Positions 4,835 through 21,608 of a DNA stretch of 23,481 nt are shown here, in pieces. This DNA comes from a virus. Position 1 is the first letter of the stretch. Each line of letters opens with the position of its first letter. The notes under the pieces were generated by a model. It was not told the origin of the DNA, did no database searches, and saw nothing but the letters and a program-made list of their open reading frames with translations. The translations under genes were made by a program, and so were the position numbers. The DNA lies in IMG/VR virus record IMGVR_UViG_3300020183_005431, positions 1 through 23,481 of that record; one strand, written 5' to 3'.

Positions 4835-5074
4835 ATGGAACATCCACTCATACACAACCTGGACGATCTCTCAATGGAGCAATTGCAGGAGAAAATCACA
4901 GAACTCAGCCGCAAGGTGGGCATAGCGCACAGGACTGGCAATGCGCATCTACGGCACCAAGTGCAGATGGCCCTGGAAACCTATCAGAACAAGTATCGCG
5001 AACGCATGGAACAGAGCTGGCGCAAAACGGATGGAACTGATCCGGACTTTTCGGACCGCATAGACATATCATGA
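4835..5074 (+). CDS. Conserved phage protein, unknown function
   Basis: A 79-residue protein starting MEHPLIHNLDDLSMEQLQEK and containing HLRHQVQMALETYQNKYRERM. It is predicted mostly helical and charged, with a likely coiled coil over residues 12-65. I recognise the type (MEHPLIHN start, helical body, ETYQNKY) from marine T4-like phages, where it has no assigned function. An in-frame TTG at 4784 would place the N-terminus upstream of the terminator hairpin; the ATG at 4835 is preferred because the MEHPLIHN start fits the family. The only purine-rich ribosome binding site, AAGGG (4819-4823), is in the 3' arm of the terminator stem. Its stop overlaps the next start (ATGA). Confidence 0.7.
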   Translation: MEHPLIHNLDDLSMEQLQEKITELSRKVGIAHRTGNAHLRHQVQMALETYQNKYRERMEQSWRKTDGTDPDFSDRIDIS

Positions 5075-5670
5075 ATGTGAGATTGGTCAAAACTTGGTAT
5101 TGGCAGTCCGGTCGTGTGCTAGCAGGAGAATGTTACATCAACTCTTACACCGCACGGGTGCAGATGCATACCACTGCCATGGATGCCGCTGAACACTCAG
5201 TGGCCTATGAGCGTATGGAGCACTGGTTCCAAAATGTGATGCAGGATTCCATCTTGATCTCCGCCGAAGATCCCAAGCTGCGAGCTTTTGGTGCCACGGG
5301 ACAGCGGATCCTGATTTTCCCAGAAGATCCCGTAGATCAGCTGGTGGGCATCATGCTGTGCATCAAGCTCAATCACATCACTGAAGGTCGTCTGGTGATC
5401 ACCGATGTAGATTTGAGCAGCATTAACGGAGAGGAAATGATCTATCGGCACAATCACTCCGAAGCCACTGGTCCGATGTCCGCACCAGGTTGGTGGCAAG
5501 ATCCACGGCCCACCTGGATGTTGGCCGGCAAAAGGAGCTCGGCCACCAAGGTAGTGTCTCTGTCGAGATATCCCGAATGGCATTCTACAAACCTGGAATG
5601 GCCAAACCGGGCCGCTGCGCCCGAGTCGGCCGTGGTGTTCGCGGATTTTGATCGAGATGATGACAAATAA
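5071..5670 (+). CDS. Conserved phage hypothetical protein
   Basis: A 199-residue protein of unknown function. It starts MNVRLVKTWYWQSGRVLAGE, has a central stretch reading FPEDPVDQLVGIMLCIKLNHI, then GEEMIYRHNHSE and a tryptophan-rich tail with PGWWQDPRPTWM. No signal peptide, transmembrane segment or catalytic motif that I can name is present. It overlaps the preceding gene by four bases (ATGA) and the following gene by 11, placing it in one translationally coupled set with a DnaE-like fragment. Proteins of similar layout occur next to that fragment in other marine T4-like phages as far as I recall, but this is memory, not a search. Confidence 0.65.
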   Translation: MNVRLVKTWYWQSGRVLAGECYINSYTARVQMHTTAMDAAEHSVAYERMEHWFQNVMQDSILISAEDPKLRAFGATGQRILIFPEDPVDQLVGIMLCIKLNHITEGRLVITDVDLSSINGEEMIYRHNHSEATGPMSAPGWWQDPRPTWMLAGKRSSATKVVSLSRYPEWHSTNLEWPNRAAAPESAVVFADFDRDDDK

Positions 5671-6178
5671 ATTTGGCGAGATCATGCTGTCAGAATCGGA
5701 TCTATGCGATCTCGTGATGCAGGGCAGAGATCTGACCACCATGGATCGTGTGACCGTGGATCCGGCCGTGGATCTGGAAAAAATGATACAACACCTGCGA
5801 GAACCCAGATCATTGCTGACTTGGACATTTCCGGAAGCATCTGATATTTCTGTACCCGAATTTGATCTGCAGCGACAGGCCCGATGGCTCATGCCCGACG
5901 AATATCGTGACACAGATATCGCGCAACATGTTTTGGATCTGTGTCAAACGCCAGAGCAACTGCAACGGGCCGGAGAAGAGTTGCTGCTGTTCCAGGAACA
6001 TGGACTATTTGATCTCTTGAGATATCTGCGCTATCTAGTACACACGATGCAGCAAAATCATGTGATCTGGGGAGTGGGCCGTGGCAGTTCTGTGGCCAGC
6101 TATGTGTTGTACCTGCTGGGTGTGCATCGCATAGATTCCATGTACTATGATTTAGACCCCCGAGAATTCCTGCGTTAA
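5660..6178 (+). CDS. Stand-alone DnaE-like (DNA polymerase III alpha) module
   Basis: A 172-residue protein. Residues 137-172, with VGRGSSVASYVLYLLGV followed by DSMYYDLDPREFLR, match the GRGSxxxSLVxYLLGIxxxDPxxYxLxFERFLN block at the start of the palm of bacterial replicative polymerases (C-family). The rest resembles the helical region before it (LQRAGEELLLFQEHGLFDLLRYLRYL). The protein stops exactly at FLR, so the following catalytic aspartates (PDxDxDF in DnaE) are absent and it cannot polymerise by itself. It could bind primer-template or a polymerase partner (inference). The start at 5660 (MTNKFGE) is chosen over in-frame TTG 5648 and ATG 5657 because family members begin near NKFGE; it overlaps the previous gene. 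Confidence 0.75.
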   Translation: MTNKFGEIMLSESDLCDLVMQGRDLTTMDRVTVDPAVDLEKMIQHLREPRSLLTWTFPEASDISVPEFDLQRQARWLMPDEYRDTDIAQHVLDLCQTPEQLQRAGEELLLFQEHGLFDLLRYLRYLVHTMQQNHVIWGVGRGSSVASYVLYLLGVHRIDSMYYDLDPREFLR

Positions 6179-6204: not shown

Positions 6205-6627
6205 ATGACTAGGAAAGTATACAGGACCGCCCAAGGCAAGATAGTGGATCTCGGTGCCCTGCAACTGCGCAACGAAAACGTGCGTGCAGTAGGCAACATG
6301 CAAGTAAATGCTCGTGGCGACCTTATCGACAGTGGCAATCGTCCGATAGACACCAGGAACAGCCAGGTAGCCCGTCAATACCGCCGCCAGACCACCAATG
6401 TCTCAGATACACCTGTACGGGCCAGCCAGTCGGCTGCTGCGGCCATGCCCCACCCTCCGGAAGATTTCCAAGATGATTTTGTCAAACAGCCGGCATCAGT
6501 AGCAACCACCGCTGCACCCACTGCGGGGTTGGCCGCGGCCATCGCCCGCGCCAGAGAGATACGCCAGGATCCACTGAAAACACATCAAAGTATCGTCGAA
6601 CATCAATCTCAAACAGGAAAATCATGA
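6205..6627 (+). CDS. Conserved phage hypothetical protein
   Basis: A 140-residue basic protein. The first 60 residues, including RTAQGKIVDLGALQLRNENV, then AVGNMQVNARGD, form the conserved part that I recognise from marine T4-like phages; no function is assigned there. The second half is low-complexity, rich in A, T and Q, and ends in a helical AAAIARAREIRQDPLKTHQS segment. Lack of a signal peptide or transmembrane segment suggests a cytoplasmic or virion protein. It has the best ribosome binding site in its neighbourhood (ACGAGGAGACAACA) and a late box, and its stop overlaps the co-chaperonin start (ATGA), so the two are probably made together. Confidence 0.7.
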   Translation: MTRKVYRTAQGKIVDLGALQLRNENVRAVGNMQVNARGDLIDSGNRPIDTRNSQVARQYRRQTTNVSDTPVRASQSAAAAMPHPPEDFQDDFVKQPASVATTAAPTAGLAAAIARAREIRQDPLKTHQSIVEHQSQTGKS

Positions 6628-7007
6628 TCTCTGCGTTTTCTCCACACCGTATCCAGAATCTCCGAGCGCTAGGCAACACTGTGATAGTGGCCGATATGGA
6701 GTTCCAAGGGCGCACTCTCAGCTCAGGTATCATCCTACACAACGACAACGGTACCACTGCCGGCATCAGACCTCGCTGGGGCCAGATCTATGCGGTAGGA
6801 CCAGAACAACGAGACGTGCGTCCAGGACAATGGGTATGCGTGGTGCACGGACGTTGGACCCGGGGTCTTGAAATAGAAGACGATGCCGGTGTCAAAACCA
6901 TAAGAAAAATCGATCCCGACGATATCCTGTTGGTGTCAGACCAAGAACCCGGCACTGATGATACCATCAGCGACGCCATCCAAGCACAAGCCAAAAACCG
7001 TTTCTAG
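6624..7007 (+). CDS. GroES-like co-chaperonin (phage gp31-type)
   Basis: A 127-residue protein. RALGNTVIVADMEFQGRTLSSGIIL (residues about 12-37) corresponds to the GroES core start (RPLxDRVLV...TxGGI) with its mobile loop. PRWGQIYAVGPEQRDVRPGQWV matches the GKVLAVGxG...VxxGDxV block, and DPDDILLV the C-terminal strand. It would cap GroEL during folding of phage proteins, as T4 gp31 does for the capsid protein. It is somewhat longer than bacterial GroES (about 95 residues), with an N-terminal extension and a polar C-terminal tail. It overlaps its neighbours at both ends (ATGA; TAGTG), pointing to coupled translation. Confidence 0.85.
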   Translation: MISAFSPHRIQNLRALGNTVIVADMEFQGRTLSSGIILHNDNGTTAGIRPRWGQIYAVGPEQRDVRPGQWVCVVHGRWTRGLEIEDDAGVKTIRKIDPDDILLVSDQEPGTDDTISDAIQAQAKNRF

Positions 7008-7232: not shown

Positions 7233-8159
7233 GTGAAGAAACTATGGACAGAAGCCTATCGACCCAAAACTATTGGTGATTATGTGTTCCGCGATTCGGC
7301 ACAGCGCCAACAGGTACAAAGTTGGGTGGATGCAGGAGCCATACCACATCTGTTGTTTTCGGGAGCACCGGGTGTGGGCAAGACCACGTTGGCCAAGATC
7401 TTGATCGCGGAACTTGGTATCGACGACTACGATGTGCTAGAGATCAACGCCAGCCGTGAAAACTCCGTGGACACAATCCGTGACAAGATCACGGGCTTCG
7501 TGCAAACCATGCCGTTTGGTCAGTTCAAGGTAGTCCTACTAGACGAAGCAGACTACATCTCGCCCAACGGTCAGGCTGCGCTTCGCGGTGTAATGGAGAC
7601 ATATCACGCCAGTGCAAGGTTCATCCTTACTTGTAACTATCCCAATCGAGTCATACCTGCTCTACATTCAAGATGCCAAGGATTCCATATTGAGCGTGTA
7701 GACGTGACCGAATTCACTGCTCGTGTGGCCACTGTCATGGTCACTGAGGGCGTAGAGTTTGATCTAGATACCTTGGATACCTATGTCAAAGCCACCTATC
7801 CCGATCTGCGCAAATGTCTCAACATGTGCCAGATGAAATCTGTGAATAGTATTTTGGTATCACCCACGGGCGACGAAGGTGGTACCAAAGAATGGAAACT
7901 GGAGGTGGTGCAACTGTTCAAGTCCGGAAGGGTGCAAGATGCCCGGCGACTGCTGTGTGCCAACGCCCGGCCCGAAGAAATGGAAGAGATCTTCCGTTGG
8001 ATGTATGACAATCTTGGGCTCTGGAGCACAGATCCGGAAAAACAAGATCAGGCGATCGTGATCATACGCAATGGATATGTGAACATACCCTTGGTGGCTG
8101 ATCAGGAAATTAACCTTGCAGCCACACTTATAGAGCTTAGTCATCTAGATCATGTTTGA
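7233..8159 (+). CDS. Clamp loader ATPase, gp44-like (RFC small subunit family)
   Basis: A 308-residue AAA+ protein. Walker A is GAPGVGKT (44-51), Walker B VVLLDEAD (100-107), sensor 1 lies in LTCNYPNRV and the SRC arginine-finger motif is at 146-148. The N-terminal LWTEAYRPKTIGDYV is the RFC box found in T4 gp44 and archaeal/eukaryotic RFC small subunits. In T4, gp44 forms the 4:1 clamp loader with gp62 and loads the gp45 sliding clamp; no gp62 or gp45 gene is seen nearby. The GTG start has AAGGA seven bases upstream. Its 3' end overlaps the radical SAM gene by eight bases. The assignment is secure. Confidence 0.93.
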   Translation: MKKLWTEAYRPKTIGDYVFRDSAQRQQVQSWVDAGAIPHLLFSGAPGVGKTTLAKILIAELGIDDYDVLEINASRENSVDTIRDKITGFVQTMPFGQFKVVLLDEADYISPNGQAALRGVMETYHASARFILTCNYPNRVIPALHSRCQGFHIERVDVTEFTARVATVMVTEGVEFDLDTLDTYVKATYPDLRKCLNMCQMKSVNSILVSPTGDEGGTKEWKLEVVQLFKSGRVQDARRLLCANARPEEMEEIFRWMYDNLGLWSTDPEKQDQAIVIIRNGYVNIPLVADQEINLAATLIELSHLDHV

Positions 8160-9282
8160 TTTTGAAGCACTAGAACCTACCATAGATCCTTGCAATCGGA
8201 TCTCATTTCTGTTAGACTGGGAATTGACAATGAAATGCAATCTAGATTGCAGTTATTGTCGTACTGGCATTGACGGAAGCCACGACAACACCACTTCACA
8301 TCCTCCTCTACAACAATGTATTGACACCATAGAGTTTATGTTTCAGTATGTAGATCTATACATGCAGCGCAAACCAAAAGGCATTAGATATGTTGTGTTA
8401 AATGTCTATGGAGGCGAATCTCTGCATCATCCTCACATCAGTACTATATTAAAGCATGTGCATCAAATCTATCGAGATACTTACAGGCTTAAATGGCAGC
8501 TCACTGTCACAACTACCACCAACGCCATTGTAAGCAAGAAGAAGTTGGACACCGTCATTCCATTCATAGATGAATTCACCGTCAGTTTCCACAGTGAAAA
8601 CAACCGCAAACAAATGGATCTTTTTAGATCCAATATCATGTATTTGAGAGAAAGGGGTAAACGAATCAAATGTATCATTTTGATGCATGCTAAACCAGAA
8701 CTTTTCCGTCTATCTCAACAAATGATTGAATGGTGCCAACACAACGAGATAAAATTTCTCCCTCGGCAACTGGATCACAATCCAGAACGACATGAATTCA
8801 ATTATATGCCAGAACAGACTGTTTGGTTCGATAAACTCTATAAGGACAAAGCCTATAACAGCCAAAAACACGTGGCGATCCCTATCATCCAAGAGTCAGT
8901 AGATCTTGCCAAGTTAGGTCGTGCTTGTTGTGGAGGTCGTTCTTTCTGCAAGGATCAATCATATAAACAACGAGATTTCTACATATCGAATCGGTTCCCA
9001 AATTGGCACTGTAGCGTGAATGAATTCTTTTTGTTTGTGAAACAAATAAATGGAGAAATCTATACTAACAAAGATTGCAAAATGAATTTCAACGGACAGA
9101 TTGGTCCTATAGGCAATCTAAATAACAAGAAAACCATTCTTGATTACACAAAAAAAAATTTAGAAACAGGATCGATGCCAATCATACAATGTCAAAAAAC
9201 ACGTTGTTACTGTGGCCTGTGTGCTCCCAAAGCCAAACATAAAGACACATACAGTAGCATAATGAAAAAATATCGCGTATGA
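8152..9282 (+). CDS. Radical SAM enzyme with extra C-terminal cysteines
   Basis: A 376-residue protein. C29-NLD-C33-SY-C36 is the canonical CxxxCxxC site for the radical-generating [4Fe-4S] cluster, and LNVYGGES resembles the GGEP motif that helps bind S-adenosylmethionine. Cysteines in ACCGGRSFC, WHCSVNE, KDCKMNF and CQKTRCYCGLC near the C-terminus suggest one or two auxiliary clusters, as in SPASM/twitch proteins. The substrate is unknown; peptide modification is common for SPASM enzymes but not shown here. Two sampled lines (8341, 9061) are about 33-35% GC, far below neighbouring late genes, suggesting separate acquisition. It overlaps the clamp-loader gene by eight bases and the next gene by four. 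No evident leader peptide precedes it. Confidence 0.88.
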   Translation: MFDFEALEPTIDPCNRISFLLDWELTMKCNLDCSYCRTGIDGSHDNTTSHPPLQQCIDTIEFMFQYVDLYMQRKPKGIRYVVLNVYGGESLHHPHISTILKHVHQIYRDTYRLKWQLTVTTTTNAIVSKKKLDTVIPFIDEFTVSFHSENNRKQMDLFRSNIMYLRERGKRIKCIILMHAKPELFRLSQQMIEWCQHNEIKFLPRQLDHNPERHEFNYMPEQTVWFDKLYKDKAYNSQKHVAIPIIQESVDLAKLGRACCGGRSFCKDQSYKQRDFYISNRFPNWHCSVNEFFLFVKQINGEIYTNKDCKMNFNGQIGPIGNLNNKKTILDYTKKNLETGSMPIIQCQKTRCYCGLCAPKAKHKDTYSSIMKKYRV

Positions 9283-13544: not shown

Positions 13545-14115
13545 AATATTCATGATAGGCGTGCCTGGTTCGCGCTGGTCAGGCATCGCCCAAAACATCG
13601 AAGACAACGTTCCAGGATTCAATACGTCAGATCGCAGGCCCGATCGCGTGTACAGCCATCACAACTTTTCGGGACATCTAGGTGTGTATTTTGGCACAGG
13701 ATGGGAACATGATACCAGTCTCGATGAATCCAATCTAGATCATGGTTTTGCACACACCCAAGGCACACGCATACTCAAGAGCCACGAGTGGGCCTATCAC
13801 TTAGACGAGATACATCATCGCTATCCCGACTCCTGGGTCTTCTTGGTGTACCGACCCGATATGAGTGCATACTCGTGGTGGCACCAGGCCGGCGGTTTCA
13901 ATATCACCTATCCTCTATACGAACCTTACTATCATGACAGCGTGCGCATGATGTCAGAGATCATGCGGCAGAATCAAGCCATCATGCAGTTCGCTCAGCG
14001 GCATGATCTAGAGTGGCGACACATTTCAGGCCGCTGGATCCAAGAACATTTTGGTCAGTATGTAGAGCCCAGTCGCCGTGATCCTGATACTCTTGTTACT
14101 TTACTAAAACCGTGA
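13531..14115 (+). CDS. Sulfotransferase-like protein
   Basis: A 194-residue protein. IFMIGVPGSRWSGIAQ (6-21) resembles the 5'-phosphosulfate-binding loop at the N-terminus of sulfotransferases (a modified P-loop), and WVFLVYRPDMSAYSWW (about 102-117) fits the second PAPS-contacting segment (the R..S region). Members of this type occur in marine T4-like phages without known substrate. It ends in GTGA, overlapping the TctA-like gene by four bases, so the two are likely translated together. The ATG at 13531 lies inside the membrane-protein gene. The family call rests on two short motifs and could be another P-loop-like fold. Confidence 0.55.
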   Translation: MLPNKIFMIGVPGSRWSGIAQNIEDNVPGFNTSDRRPDRVYSHHNFSGHLGVYFGTGWEHDTSLDESNLDHGFAHTQGTRILKSHEWAYHLDEIHHRYPDSWVFLVYRPDMSAYSWWHQAGGFNITYPLYEPYYHDSVRMMSEIMRQNQAIMQFAQRHDLEWRHISGRWIQEHFGQYVEPSRRDPDTLVTLLKP

Positions 14116-15554
14116 TTGAATACATCGTCTGGACCTTGCTGGGCACCCTGTATGGTGTGATAATCGGCATCATGCCCATGGCCGGTGTCACGACGGGCCT
14201 GCTCACAGTGTTTGGCCTGGCCGACCAGTTCCTAGGCAACCCCTATCTGGGCGTGGTGTTCATGACCAGTCTCATAGCTGCCTGCAGCACCGCTGACAGT
14301 TTCACTAGCATACTCACCGGTATACCAGGATCTAATACCACAGCAGCGTCGATAATCGACGGCTATCCCATGGCCAAGAAAGGCGAAGCCGGCCGTGCCA
14401 TCGGCATCGCGCTGATGGATAGTACCGTGAATGGACTGTTCTGGGGTGCTATCGCTTTTGGGTTGATGCCGTTTTATAGCAATCTCATAATGTTTTTTGG
14501 CATACCAGAATTCATGGCTTTCATGATCCTGAGTCTAGCCTGTGTGGGTTTCATTACCACACGAAATCCTTGGCTCAGCATAGTCAGCATCGCGATAGGT
14601 ATCTTCATTGGTATGATTGGACAGAATCCAGCCACCGGAGCTCATAGGCTCACATTTGGTTGGGAGTATCTGGCGGCCGGAGTGCAGATGATACCCTTGA
14701 TAGCCGGCTTGTTCGCCGTGCCCGAAGTATTGCAGGGGTTCCGGTATCAGCACAACAGGCCAGAACCCATACGAGACTACTGGCAGCAGTTGCGCCAGGG
14801 ATTCGGTGATTGCTGGCGCTGTCGTGGTGATGTTGCCCGCGGTGGTGCTATAGGTTTTTTTACAGGTCTGCTGCCTGGTGTGGGTGGCACCATCGGTGAC
14901 ATCATGGCCTATGGTGCCACGGTGGCACGACACAAGACAGAAAAATTTGGTGCAGGCAATCCTCGTGGACTCTTGGGCTGCGAAGGCGCCAACAACGCAC
15001 AGAAACCCGCGAGTCTCATACCCACAGTGCTGTTTGGCATACCAGGTGCACCTTTCGCTGCGATCATGATGGCCATATGTATGTACTTCGGACTAGAGCT
15101 GGGATCACCAGCTCTGCTGGAAGATCGAGATTTTATCACTGCCTTGGGCGTGGCCTTCATTGTGGGCACAATTTTGTGCTTTGTGCTCTGTATTTTCACC
15201 ACACGCTGGATCGTGAAAATCTTGGAAATACCCTATTGGATCTATGCCGCCGTGATCATGACCATAGTTATTTGGAGCTGCTTGCAGTATTCGGGAACCT
15301 GGAATGATCTATATATCTTGGTTATTTGCTCGTTACTGGGCATGATCTGTGTGCGATACAAGATTTCTCGACCAGCTGTGTTGGTGGCATATATACTGAG
15401 TGAGAAGTTGGAAAACTACTCACAACAAGCCTTGACGCTGTACTCTTTCAGCGATCTACTACAACGTCCTCTGTTTTTAACTCTTCTTATCGTAAGCGTC
15501 CTTGTCATATCCTGGAGCCTGCTGCGACGGAATCGAGGCATCGATTTCCATTAA
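14112..15554 (+). CDS. TctA-like large subunit of a tripartite tricarboxylate transporter
   Basis: A 480-residue polytopic membrane protein with about 10-12 hydrophobic segments. Two family hallmarks are present: TGIPGSNTTAASIIDGYPMA (69-88) continuing KKGEAGRAIG, and in the second half GLLPGVGGTIGDIMAYG (252-268) with EGANNAQKPASLIPTVLFGIPG (291-312). Length fits TctA (about 500). TctA forms the inner-membrane channel of the TTT family, taking up tricarboxylates or other carboxylates delivered by a periplasmic TctC. TctB, the small membrane subunit, is not found here. The GTG start overlaps the preceding stop (GTGA). The ligand cannot be read from sequence. Transporters of this size are rare in phages. 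Confidence 0.92.
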   Translation: MIEYIVWTLLGTLYGVIIGIMPMAGVTTGLLTVFGLADQFLGNPYLGVVFMTSLIAACSTADSFTSILTGIPGSNTTAASIIDGYPMAKKGEAGRAIGIALMDSTVNGLFWGAIAFGLMPFYSNLIMFFGIPEFMAFMILSLACVGFITTRNPWLSIVSIAIGIFIGMIGQNPATGAHRLTFGWEYLAAGVQMIPLIAGLFAVPEVLQGFRYQHNRPEPIRDYWQQLRQGFGDCWRCRGDVARGGAIGFFTGLLPGVGGTIGDIMAYGATVARHKTEKFGAGNPRGLLGCEGANNAQKPASLIPTVLFGIPGAPFAAIMMAICMYFGLELGSPALLEDRDFITALGVAFIVGTILCFVLCIFTTRWIVKILEIPYWIYAAVIMTIVIWSCLQYSGTWNDLYILVICSLLGMICVRYKISRPAVLVAYILSEKLENYSQQALTLYSFSDLLQRPLFLTLLIVSVLVISWSLLRRNRGIDFH

Positions 15555-15577: not shown

Positions 15578-16663
15578 ATGATTAAAAAACTTCTAGCATC
15601 AATGGTAGCCAGCGCGTCCATGTTCATGACTGTTTTGCCTAGTTCAGCCTGGGCCGAATTCCGCATGATAGTACCACAAGCAGCCGGCAACGGCACAGCA
15701 GTATGGGCCGCGATCATAGCCCAACACCTGGAAAAACAACTGGGTGAAAAGATCGTGATCCAGCACATACCTGGTGCCAAAGACATACCGGGCTTCAATG
15801 AATTCCACAACAAGCTGAGACAAGATCCCAAGGTGATCATGGTCAGCCACGGCGGCAATGGCATCGGGTATCTGGTGGACAAAGTAGACTATGATTACAA
15901 ACACTACGATTCCATCGGTATGATGAATCTCAACATCGTGGTTGGTAAACACATAGGCAACCCTGCAGATGGTCGCGATCGCAAAGTGCGCATCGCCGGT
16001 GCATCTGGACAGGAAACAGACGGTATGGCTATAGCCATGTTGTTATGTGGCAATTTGCCTACCATGCAGGCCTATCTCGACTGTTGGAATCAGCGAGCTG
16101 TGTGGGTTAACGGAGTACCGGGCAACGAGCGCAGGTTAGGCTTCATGCGACGAGAATTTGACGTGGCTCGTGAGTCGGTAGTATCTTGGTTCAAATACTA
16201 TACCGATCCCAAGGCGGCTGCCGAAATCTGGTTCCATCACGGGGTTTATGATCTGGACCGTAGGGTGCAAAAAGAAGATCCTAACTTTGCCGCAGGTCTG
16301 AGATTTGAAACACAATTCCGCAAACTGCATGGTACGGAACCAAAAGGCCCTTTGTACGATGCTTACACCTTGAGCCGTAATTTCCGTGATGTGCTGCAAA
16401 AAGCACTGTGGGTTAACAAAGGCAATCCCAATACCGAGAGATTACGAGCGGCACTCACCAAGATGATCACGGATCCAGATGCGGCAGCTGCTTTAGAAAA
16501 AGACACAGGAAAATACGATTGGATCATCGGTAATGCCGGGAATCAAGTTGTAGATCGCATCCGTGGCAATATTACCGAACCAAAGCTGCGAGACATGGTT
16601 TGGTGGCACGAAAACGCCTACAAGTTTCCCAGCGTGTACAAACCCGAACTTATAGTGCGCTGA
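15578..16663 (+). CDS. TctC-like periplasmic solute-binding protein
   Basis: A 361-residue protein with a clear Sec signal peptide: MIKKLL, hydrophobic core ASMVASASMFMTVLP, and SSAWA cleavage after residue 26. The mature start EFRMIVPQAAGNGTAVWAAI fits the TctC beginning (xIxxIVPxAxGGxxDxxAR), and VIQHIPGAKDIPGFNEF fits the VExxPGAGGxxG motif. It would bind a carboxylate in the periplasm and pass it to the membrane subunit just upstream. It diverges from typical bacterial TctC in the middle, with long inserts such as QAYLDCWNQRAVWVNGVPGN. GGAG lies seven bases before the ATG, the first proper ribosome binding site in this set. The next gene follows after two bases. Confidence 0.85.
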   Translation: MIKKLLASMVASASMFMTVLPSSAWAEFRMIVPQAAGNGTAVWAAIIAQHLEKQLGEKIVIQHIPGAKDIPGFNEFHNKLRQDPKVIMVSHGGNGIGYLVDKVDYDYKHYDSIGMMNLNIVVGKHIGNPADGRDRKVRIAGASGQETDGMAIAMLLCGNLPTMQAYLDCWNQRAVWVNGVPGNERRLGFMRREFDVARESVVSWFKYYTDPKAAAEIWFHHGVYDLDRRVQKEDPNFAAGLRFETQFRKLHGTEPKGPLYDAYTLSRNFRDVLQKALWVNKGNPNTERLRAALTKMITDPDAAAALEKDTGKYDWIIGNAGNQVVDRIRGNITEPKLRDMVWWHENAYKFPSVYKPELIVR

Positions 16664-21161: not shown

Positions 21162-21608
21162 ATGAAACTCACCAAACGGGTGCTCTACAAACGGGCCAAA
21201 CCGGCAGAGTTCCTTTATCCCGAACAAAATCGCCTGTTGGCCCAGGACTTGCGCAGATTCATGATCAATGAAAACGGTATAGGTCTCGCAGCGCCACAGA
21301 TCGGTGTCAGCCGGAGAGTTTTCGTGATGGAAATAAAGGGCTGGCAACGGGCCTGTTTCAATCCCGTTATCATGATGACTTCTGTCGAATCTGTGGATTT
21401 TGATGAAGGATGCTTGAGTTTTCCCGGAGAACACTGTATAATAAAACGTCCCGAGTGGGTAGATGTAAGGTATCAAGACCATTGGGGACACTGGCACGCA
21501 GAAAGATTTTCCGGTCTATTGGCTAGGTGTTTCCAACACGAACTGGATCATCTGGATGGCATAACGATGTGGGAAAGACACAAGGAACAAAATGCAGAAC
21601 AACCCTGA
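21162..21608 (+). CDS. def: Peptide deformylase
   Basis: A 148-residue protein with all three deformylase motifs: GIGLAAPQIG (39-48), EGCLSFP (82-88, metal ligand C84) and QHELDHLDG (125-133, ligands H126 and H130, catalytic E127). It removes the N-formyl group from new proteins. Phage deformylases, known from cyanophages and other marine phages, are typically shorter than bacterial ones because the C-terminal helix is reduced; this one is also short (E. coli Def has 169 residues). Located between dnaJ and a Clp ATPase, it fits a protein-maturation module. It overlaps the Clp gene by 17 bases. Confidence 0.94.
   Translation: MKLTKRVLYKRAKPAEFLYPEQNRLLAQDLRRFMINENGIGLAAPQIGVSRRVFVMEIKGWQRACFNPVIMMTSVESVDFDEGCLSFPGEHCIIKRPEWVDVRYQDHWGHWHAERFSGLLARCFQHELDHLDGITMWERHKEQNAEQP

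Follow-up and report, generated by a model that had tools for sequence, protein, structure and literature searches.

A virus contig encodes the predicted nucleotide-binding half of a split C-family DNA polymerase

A split minimal Pol III alpha was described in group 2.2 jumbo phages by Iyer et al. 2021 (Viruses; PMC7824862, section 3.4.1, Fig. 3b): an NTP-binding N-terminal protein and a Mg2+- and template-binding C-terminal protein, encoded at a distance from each other beside a family B polymerase, with which Iyer, Aravind and colleagues suggested that the split enzyme cooperates. We found no experimental work on the system after this 2021 prediction in the open-licence literature. For one such N-terminal protein, CBB_328 of Pectobacterium phage CBB, the CBB paper (PMC5259590) gives the description of a truncated Pol III alpha. 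Here we analyse a relative encoded in a 23,481-nt stretch of virus DNA (IMG/VR record IMGVR_UViG_3300020183_005431; hereafter the window), which is very probably the NTP-binding subunit (N unit) of a predicted two-piece, thumbless C-family (DnaE/Pol III alpha) DNA polymerase whose catalytic half (C unit) is a separate protein. This reading is based on homology, the position of the seam, conservation, co-occurrence and predicted folds.

The N unit is a genuine open reading frame of 172 aa on the plus strand (5660-6178, from ATG 5660 to TAA 6176-6178); we place its start there and not at TTG 5648 because M-x-N-K-F-G is the conserved N-terminus of its relatives. The phrog_11127 profile ('DNA polymerase', 171 aa) covers it end to end (E 3e-37), and the Pfam family PF07733 (DNA_pol3_alpha) matches residues 98-171 at model positions 21-94 of 260 (E 5.8e-8), a match that exceeds the curated cut-off. 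The protein ends in EFLR, and its alignment extends to residue 392-393 of E. coli Pol III alpha, which runs on into the catalytic aspartate motif PDxDxDF where the N unit terminates. These matches and the EFLR end confirm the first-pass annotation, made from the letters alone, in its view that this is a piece of DnaE cut before the catalytic motif. Of the complete DnaE/PolC set (PHP, a palm with DxDxD and the third aspartate, thumb and fingers), only the palm front is found in the window protein. The comparison with the DnaE palm that the same annotation had proposed bears this out: in an AF2 model (pLDDT 83, pTM 0.61), residues about 74-172 align to residues 278-393 of E. coli Pol III alpha with a Z score of ~10, and all 15 structure matches listed are C-family polymerases. 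The best Foldseek E value is weak (0.12), and the best 15 Foldseek matches are likewise all C-family polymerases. By structure alignment, the homology to the DnaE palm front covers residues 76-172 (5885-6175, plus strand), up to the catalytic DxDxDF position; within this part, residues 137-145 (6068-6094, plus strand) form the triphosphate-binding motif WGVGRGSSV, whose GxGRGS residues are invariant or kept among relatives.

Is the abrupt end of this protein an accident of one contig? The family was found by tblastn in 71 phage records, among them PA5oct-like Pseudomonas phages, Atu_ph07, SCTP-2, Phosso and the RaK2/CBB/121Q group, and IMG/VR has at least 590 stretches that carry the gene. All 135 loci examined keep GxGRGS; in 129 of them 33 residues separate RGS from the C-terminus, and in the other 6 there are 34-35, the end falling at, or no more than 2 residues from, EFL[RK]. 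Ten residues are invariant across 96 aligned sequences (G138, G140, R141, G142, S143, S144, S147, L150, H156 and F170). An identical end zone in 135/135 loci means that the boundary is no accident, as the first-pass annotation had surmised from its exactness.

The surroundings of the N unit are also conserved, with the three downstream genes and the upstream gene described next all on the plus strand. Downstream lie phrog_14844 (6205-6627; 46/49 loci), a GroES-like/head morphogenesis protein of phrog_931 (6624-7007; 47/49) and a T4 gp44-type clamp loader of phrog_168 (7233-8159; E 3e-74; 45/49), and this order is retained at nearly all of the 49 loci compared. With few exceptions the phrog_14844 gene separates the N unit from the GroES-like gene, and its product is a possible third partner. 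The gene upstream (5071-5670), whose function is not assigned, overlaps the N unit by 11 bases and is an optional neighbour (31/49 loci). It contains ITDVD and ADFDRDD strings and was considered as a partner; whole branches keep the N unit without it, so it is not an obligate one. Some other window genes merit a record in their own right. A radical SAM-like protein (8152-9282), which few relatives have, follows immediately after the clamp loader; a full-length TctA-family tricarboxylate transporter gene (14112-15554; PF01970, E 3.5e-93) sits on this T4-like phage contig, followed by a possible solute-binding partner (15578-16663; TctC-like by eye, no Pfam match), with only distant matches among phage records; and a phage-borne peptide deformylase is encoded at 21162-21608 (PF01327, E 8e-39).

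Where, then, is the rest of the polymerase? No adjacent gene or frameshift restores DnaE, the next gene being phrog_14844, and a PF07733 search of whole genomes for the missing part returned the N unit only, except that two genomes also gave an unsplit mini-DnaE; additional weak matches, which we ascribe to chance, came from CBB (with three stops) and Vibrio phage 2.275. The catalytic half is too divergent for Pfam, falling below its cut-offs, and was instead found with the phrog_405 profile, which picks out an ORF of ~190 aa in almost every genome that has an N unit; its family is phrog_11778 (~190 aa). The aligned C units all open with DxDxD (for example, MSADIDIDFADR) and also carry HNSGVY, KxDxLN, IRPxK and FKKSHxxxY. 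Of 153 C units, 152 retain all five motifs (DxDxD, HxxGV, KxD, IRPxK and FKKSHxxxY) and 149 have DxDxD 2-7 residues past the start codon; no copy among the 153 has a GRGS module fused ahead of it. We take these motifs to be the catalytic aspartate pair, the HAGGVV strand, the third catalytic aspartate and the fingers motifs of DnaE, a correspondence based on what is established about DnaE and on the register in hhalign, where the C-unit profile aligns correctly to two mini-DnaEs at H-x-x-G and K-x-D with an E value of only 0.075. A profile search of PDB chains with the C unit gave no DnaE match; the assignment draws on PHROG profiles, motifs and predicted fold. Several RaK2-like records list the catalytic half as hypothetical or as a 'putative membrane protein', the latter in the case of CBB_287 (KU574722.1 209034-209684).

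The spacing of these motifs indicates both where the polymerase was cut and what it lost. DxDxD and HxxG are 28-32 residues apart in C units compared with 86 in an unsplit mini-DnaE, from which we conclude that the C unit has no thumb. From RGS to DxDxD there are 39 residues in the unsplit 566-aa mini-DnaE, and the split halves give 33 plus about 3-5, which comes close to that spacing. The predicted folds fit the same seam. The C-unit AF2 model (pLDDT 93.6, pTM 0.84) can be aligned to C-family polymerases over as many as 196 of its 198 residues, at an rmsd of 4-5 Å, and covers residues 399-814 of E. coli Pol III alpha; Z scores are 5.9-9.3 for all 15 C-family entries compared with at most 3.3 for unrelated rows, and the best Foldseek E value is 2.4e-4. 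The N-unit and C-unit alignments end and begin at 393/399 in E. coli, 455/460 in Taq, 413/418 in M. tuberculosis and 965/970 in PolC, so that the two models tile the C-family polymerases with a seam of 5-6 residue numbers. The GRGS segment (residues 133-147) has no regular structure in the model of the N unit alone, as expected if its neighbouring strand sits on another chain.

The two halves also travel together. Both occur in all seven named phages searched, in the complete 141-kb Alishewanella phage Slicko01, in 10 of 10 IMG/VR contigs of at least 290 kb and in 5 of 5 MAG bins; among N-bearing contigs of 100-265 kb both were found in 8 of 24, a count expected from fragments. In the reverse direction, the N unit is present in all five C-bearing contigs of at least 212 kb. 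The C unit (phrog_11778) does not occur in the 23-kb window, which we attribute to the contig being a fragment; the phage presumably carries the C gene outside it, and a 209-kb contig (L092/G018) whose N unit is 75% identical to that of the window has one. The first-pass annotation had seen nothing in the following bases to restore DnaE, and this holds locally; the remainder, which it had named as evidence against its own reading, is encoded in relatives, by a distant gene instead of the next one. In a mirror-tree analysis, correlations were high for all genes and the N-C pair was not singled out (partial correlation given gp44 of 0.47, compared with 0.46 for GroES-C).

The distance between the N and C genes ranges from ~11 kb (Slicko01) to ~256 kb (G010), and in each of the 17 genomes compared one strand carries both. 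The C gene is near a primase and a gp41-type helicase in MIJ3, CBB, Atu_ph07, 121Q and Slicko01. A family B polymerase (PF00136) was found in 15 of 16 relatives' records searched and was not found among the window proteins scanned. Slicko01, which is below jumbo size, encodes both halves and the clamp loader on one strand in a stretch of ~12 kb (L343, OQ508956.1 64000-82500), an arrangement possibly nearer the ancestral state. Two contigs additionally encode the unsplit 566-aa mini-DnaE (L060:1432-3129 on contig G005 and L061:1450-3147 on contig G002), which has no PHP, has DVDID and has a longer stretch at the thumb position; with it, these phages encode three DNA polymerases: a family B enzyme, the predicted split C-family enzyme and the unsplit one.

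How might the pair work? In DnaE, the GRGS loop holds the triphosphate of the incoming nucleotide. The N unit would supply the helical front of the palm and this loop, gripping the triphosphate, and the C unit would start with the catalytic DxDxD strand, the structural element that follows, supplying the three metal-binding aspartates and reduced fingers and binding two Mg2+ ions and the template. Most likely the two associate non-covalently to rebuild a Pol-beta-like palm, given that neither half has intein-like extensions at the seam, and the restored active site would then operate without PHP, thumb or C-terminal domains. We infer that the N and C units form a complex that polymerises DNA and works beside the family B polymerase, where its predicted role would be gap filling, synthesis of one strand, or repair. 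Processive synthesis by a thumbless N-C complex is doubtful; since the complex has neither a thumb nor a part that would bind the clamp, it seems more likely to carry out short gap-filling or repair synthesis than to replicate DNA in bulk.

A more specific form of the two-piece polymerase, which we put forward tentatively, is that the thumbless two-chain enzyme has a role distinct from family B replication (for example, as a primer-making, end-tailing or gap-filling nucleotidyltransferase), with the assembly of its separately encoded halves serving as a control point. Another idea is that the halves do pair but form a different nucleotidyltransferase, not a DNA polymerase directed by a template, and act in end-tailing, priming, or RNA or protein modification. 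The lack of a thumb (28-32 residues between DxDxD and HxxG, compared with 86) and of PHP would suit such an activity, as would the family B polymerase that these phages already have; the near-invariance of the DnaE-fingers motifs FKKSHxxxY and IRPxK, however, and the primase and helicase beside the C gene make it unlikely.

Less probable still is that the N unit works by itself, assisting the family B polymerase or the clamp loader by binding nucleotide or template, with the C unit a separate protein. The N gene does cluster with the gp44 clamp loader and the GroES-like gene and not with the C gene, but the complementary, exact seam and the matching co-occurrence with the C unit argue against solitary action, as does the irregular GRGS segment, which fits a partner strand on the other chain. 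A stand-alone template- or nucleotide-binding module had been one suggestion of the first-pass annotation. Its nucleotide-binding part survives, in that the protein is an NTP-binding half with a conserved cut; the proposed reuse of a domain on its own is not supported, given a C unit with three catalytic aspartates, encoded in trans, in every complete genome checked. That annotation had also offered a decoy for host replisome parts, for which there is a likeness to part of a host protein and nothing further. We consider a decoy or inhibitor very improbable: the parts of DnaE that bind clamp, tau and epsilon are the C-terminal and PHP regions, and these partner-binding regions are missing from the N unit; residues of the active-site motif are among its invariant ones; and a cognate C unit is present in relatives. 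That the gene is what is left of a decaying, once complete DnaE, or comes from an error of sequencing or assembly, a view to which the description of the CBB copy as truncated in PMC5259590 might lend itself, is refuted by conservation, with dN/dS of ~0.14-0.19 against the nearest relative and a common end point in 135/135 loci, named complete phages included.

If the two-piece polymerase is real, the cut in its active site lies precisely where the triphosphate-binding loop gives way to the catalytic aspartates, and 11-256 kb separate the genes for the halves. It would be a rare natural case of a replicative-type enzyme in two pieces and, for the C family, a strikingly small polymerase, retained in a large group of phages.

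Comparison with known systems places the window protein among described ones. Relative to bacterial DnaE and PolC, the palm front with GRGS is homologous to the N unit and the catalytic aspartate triad and fingers motifs are matched in the C unit, whereas the split pair consists of two chains, lacks PHP, thumb, clamp-binding and OB parts, and totals ~360 aa compared with ~1,160. A split-intein DnaE of the cyanobacterial kind does not apply: there are no intein halves at the split ends, nor is there room for them, with N units ending 33-35 residues after RGS and C units starting 2-7 residues before DxDxD in 149/153. CBB_328 and its RaK2-like relatives belong to phrog_11127, with 172 aa and an end point like that of the window protein; in the passages of PMC5259590 consulted, CBB_328 is not paired with CBB_287, the C unit. 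The window protein matches the N unit as predicted in PMC7824862, shows no difference in kind and is therefore a further member of that published split-polymerase system, to which our analysis adds the exact seam, the counts, the structural tiling, hundreds of metagenomic copies and an occurrence in a 141-kb, non-jumbo phage.
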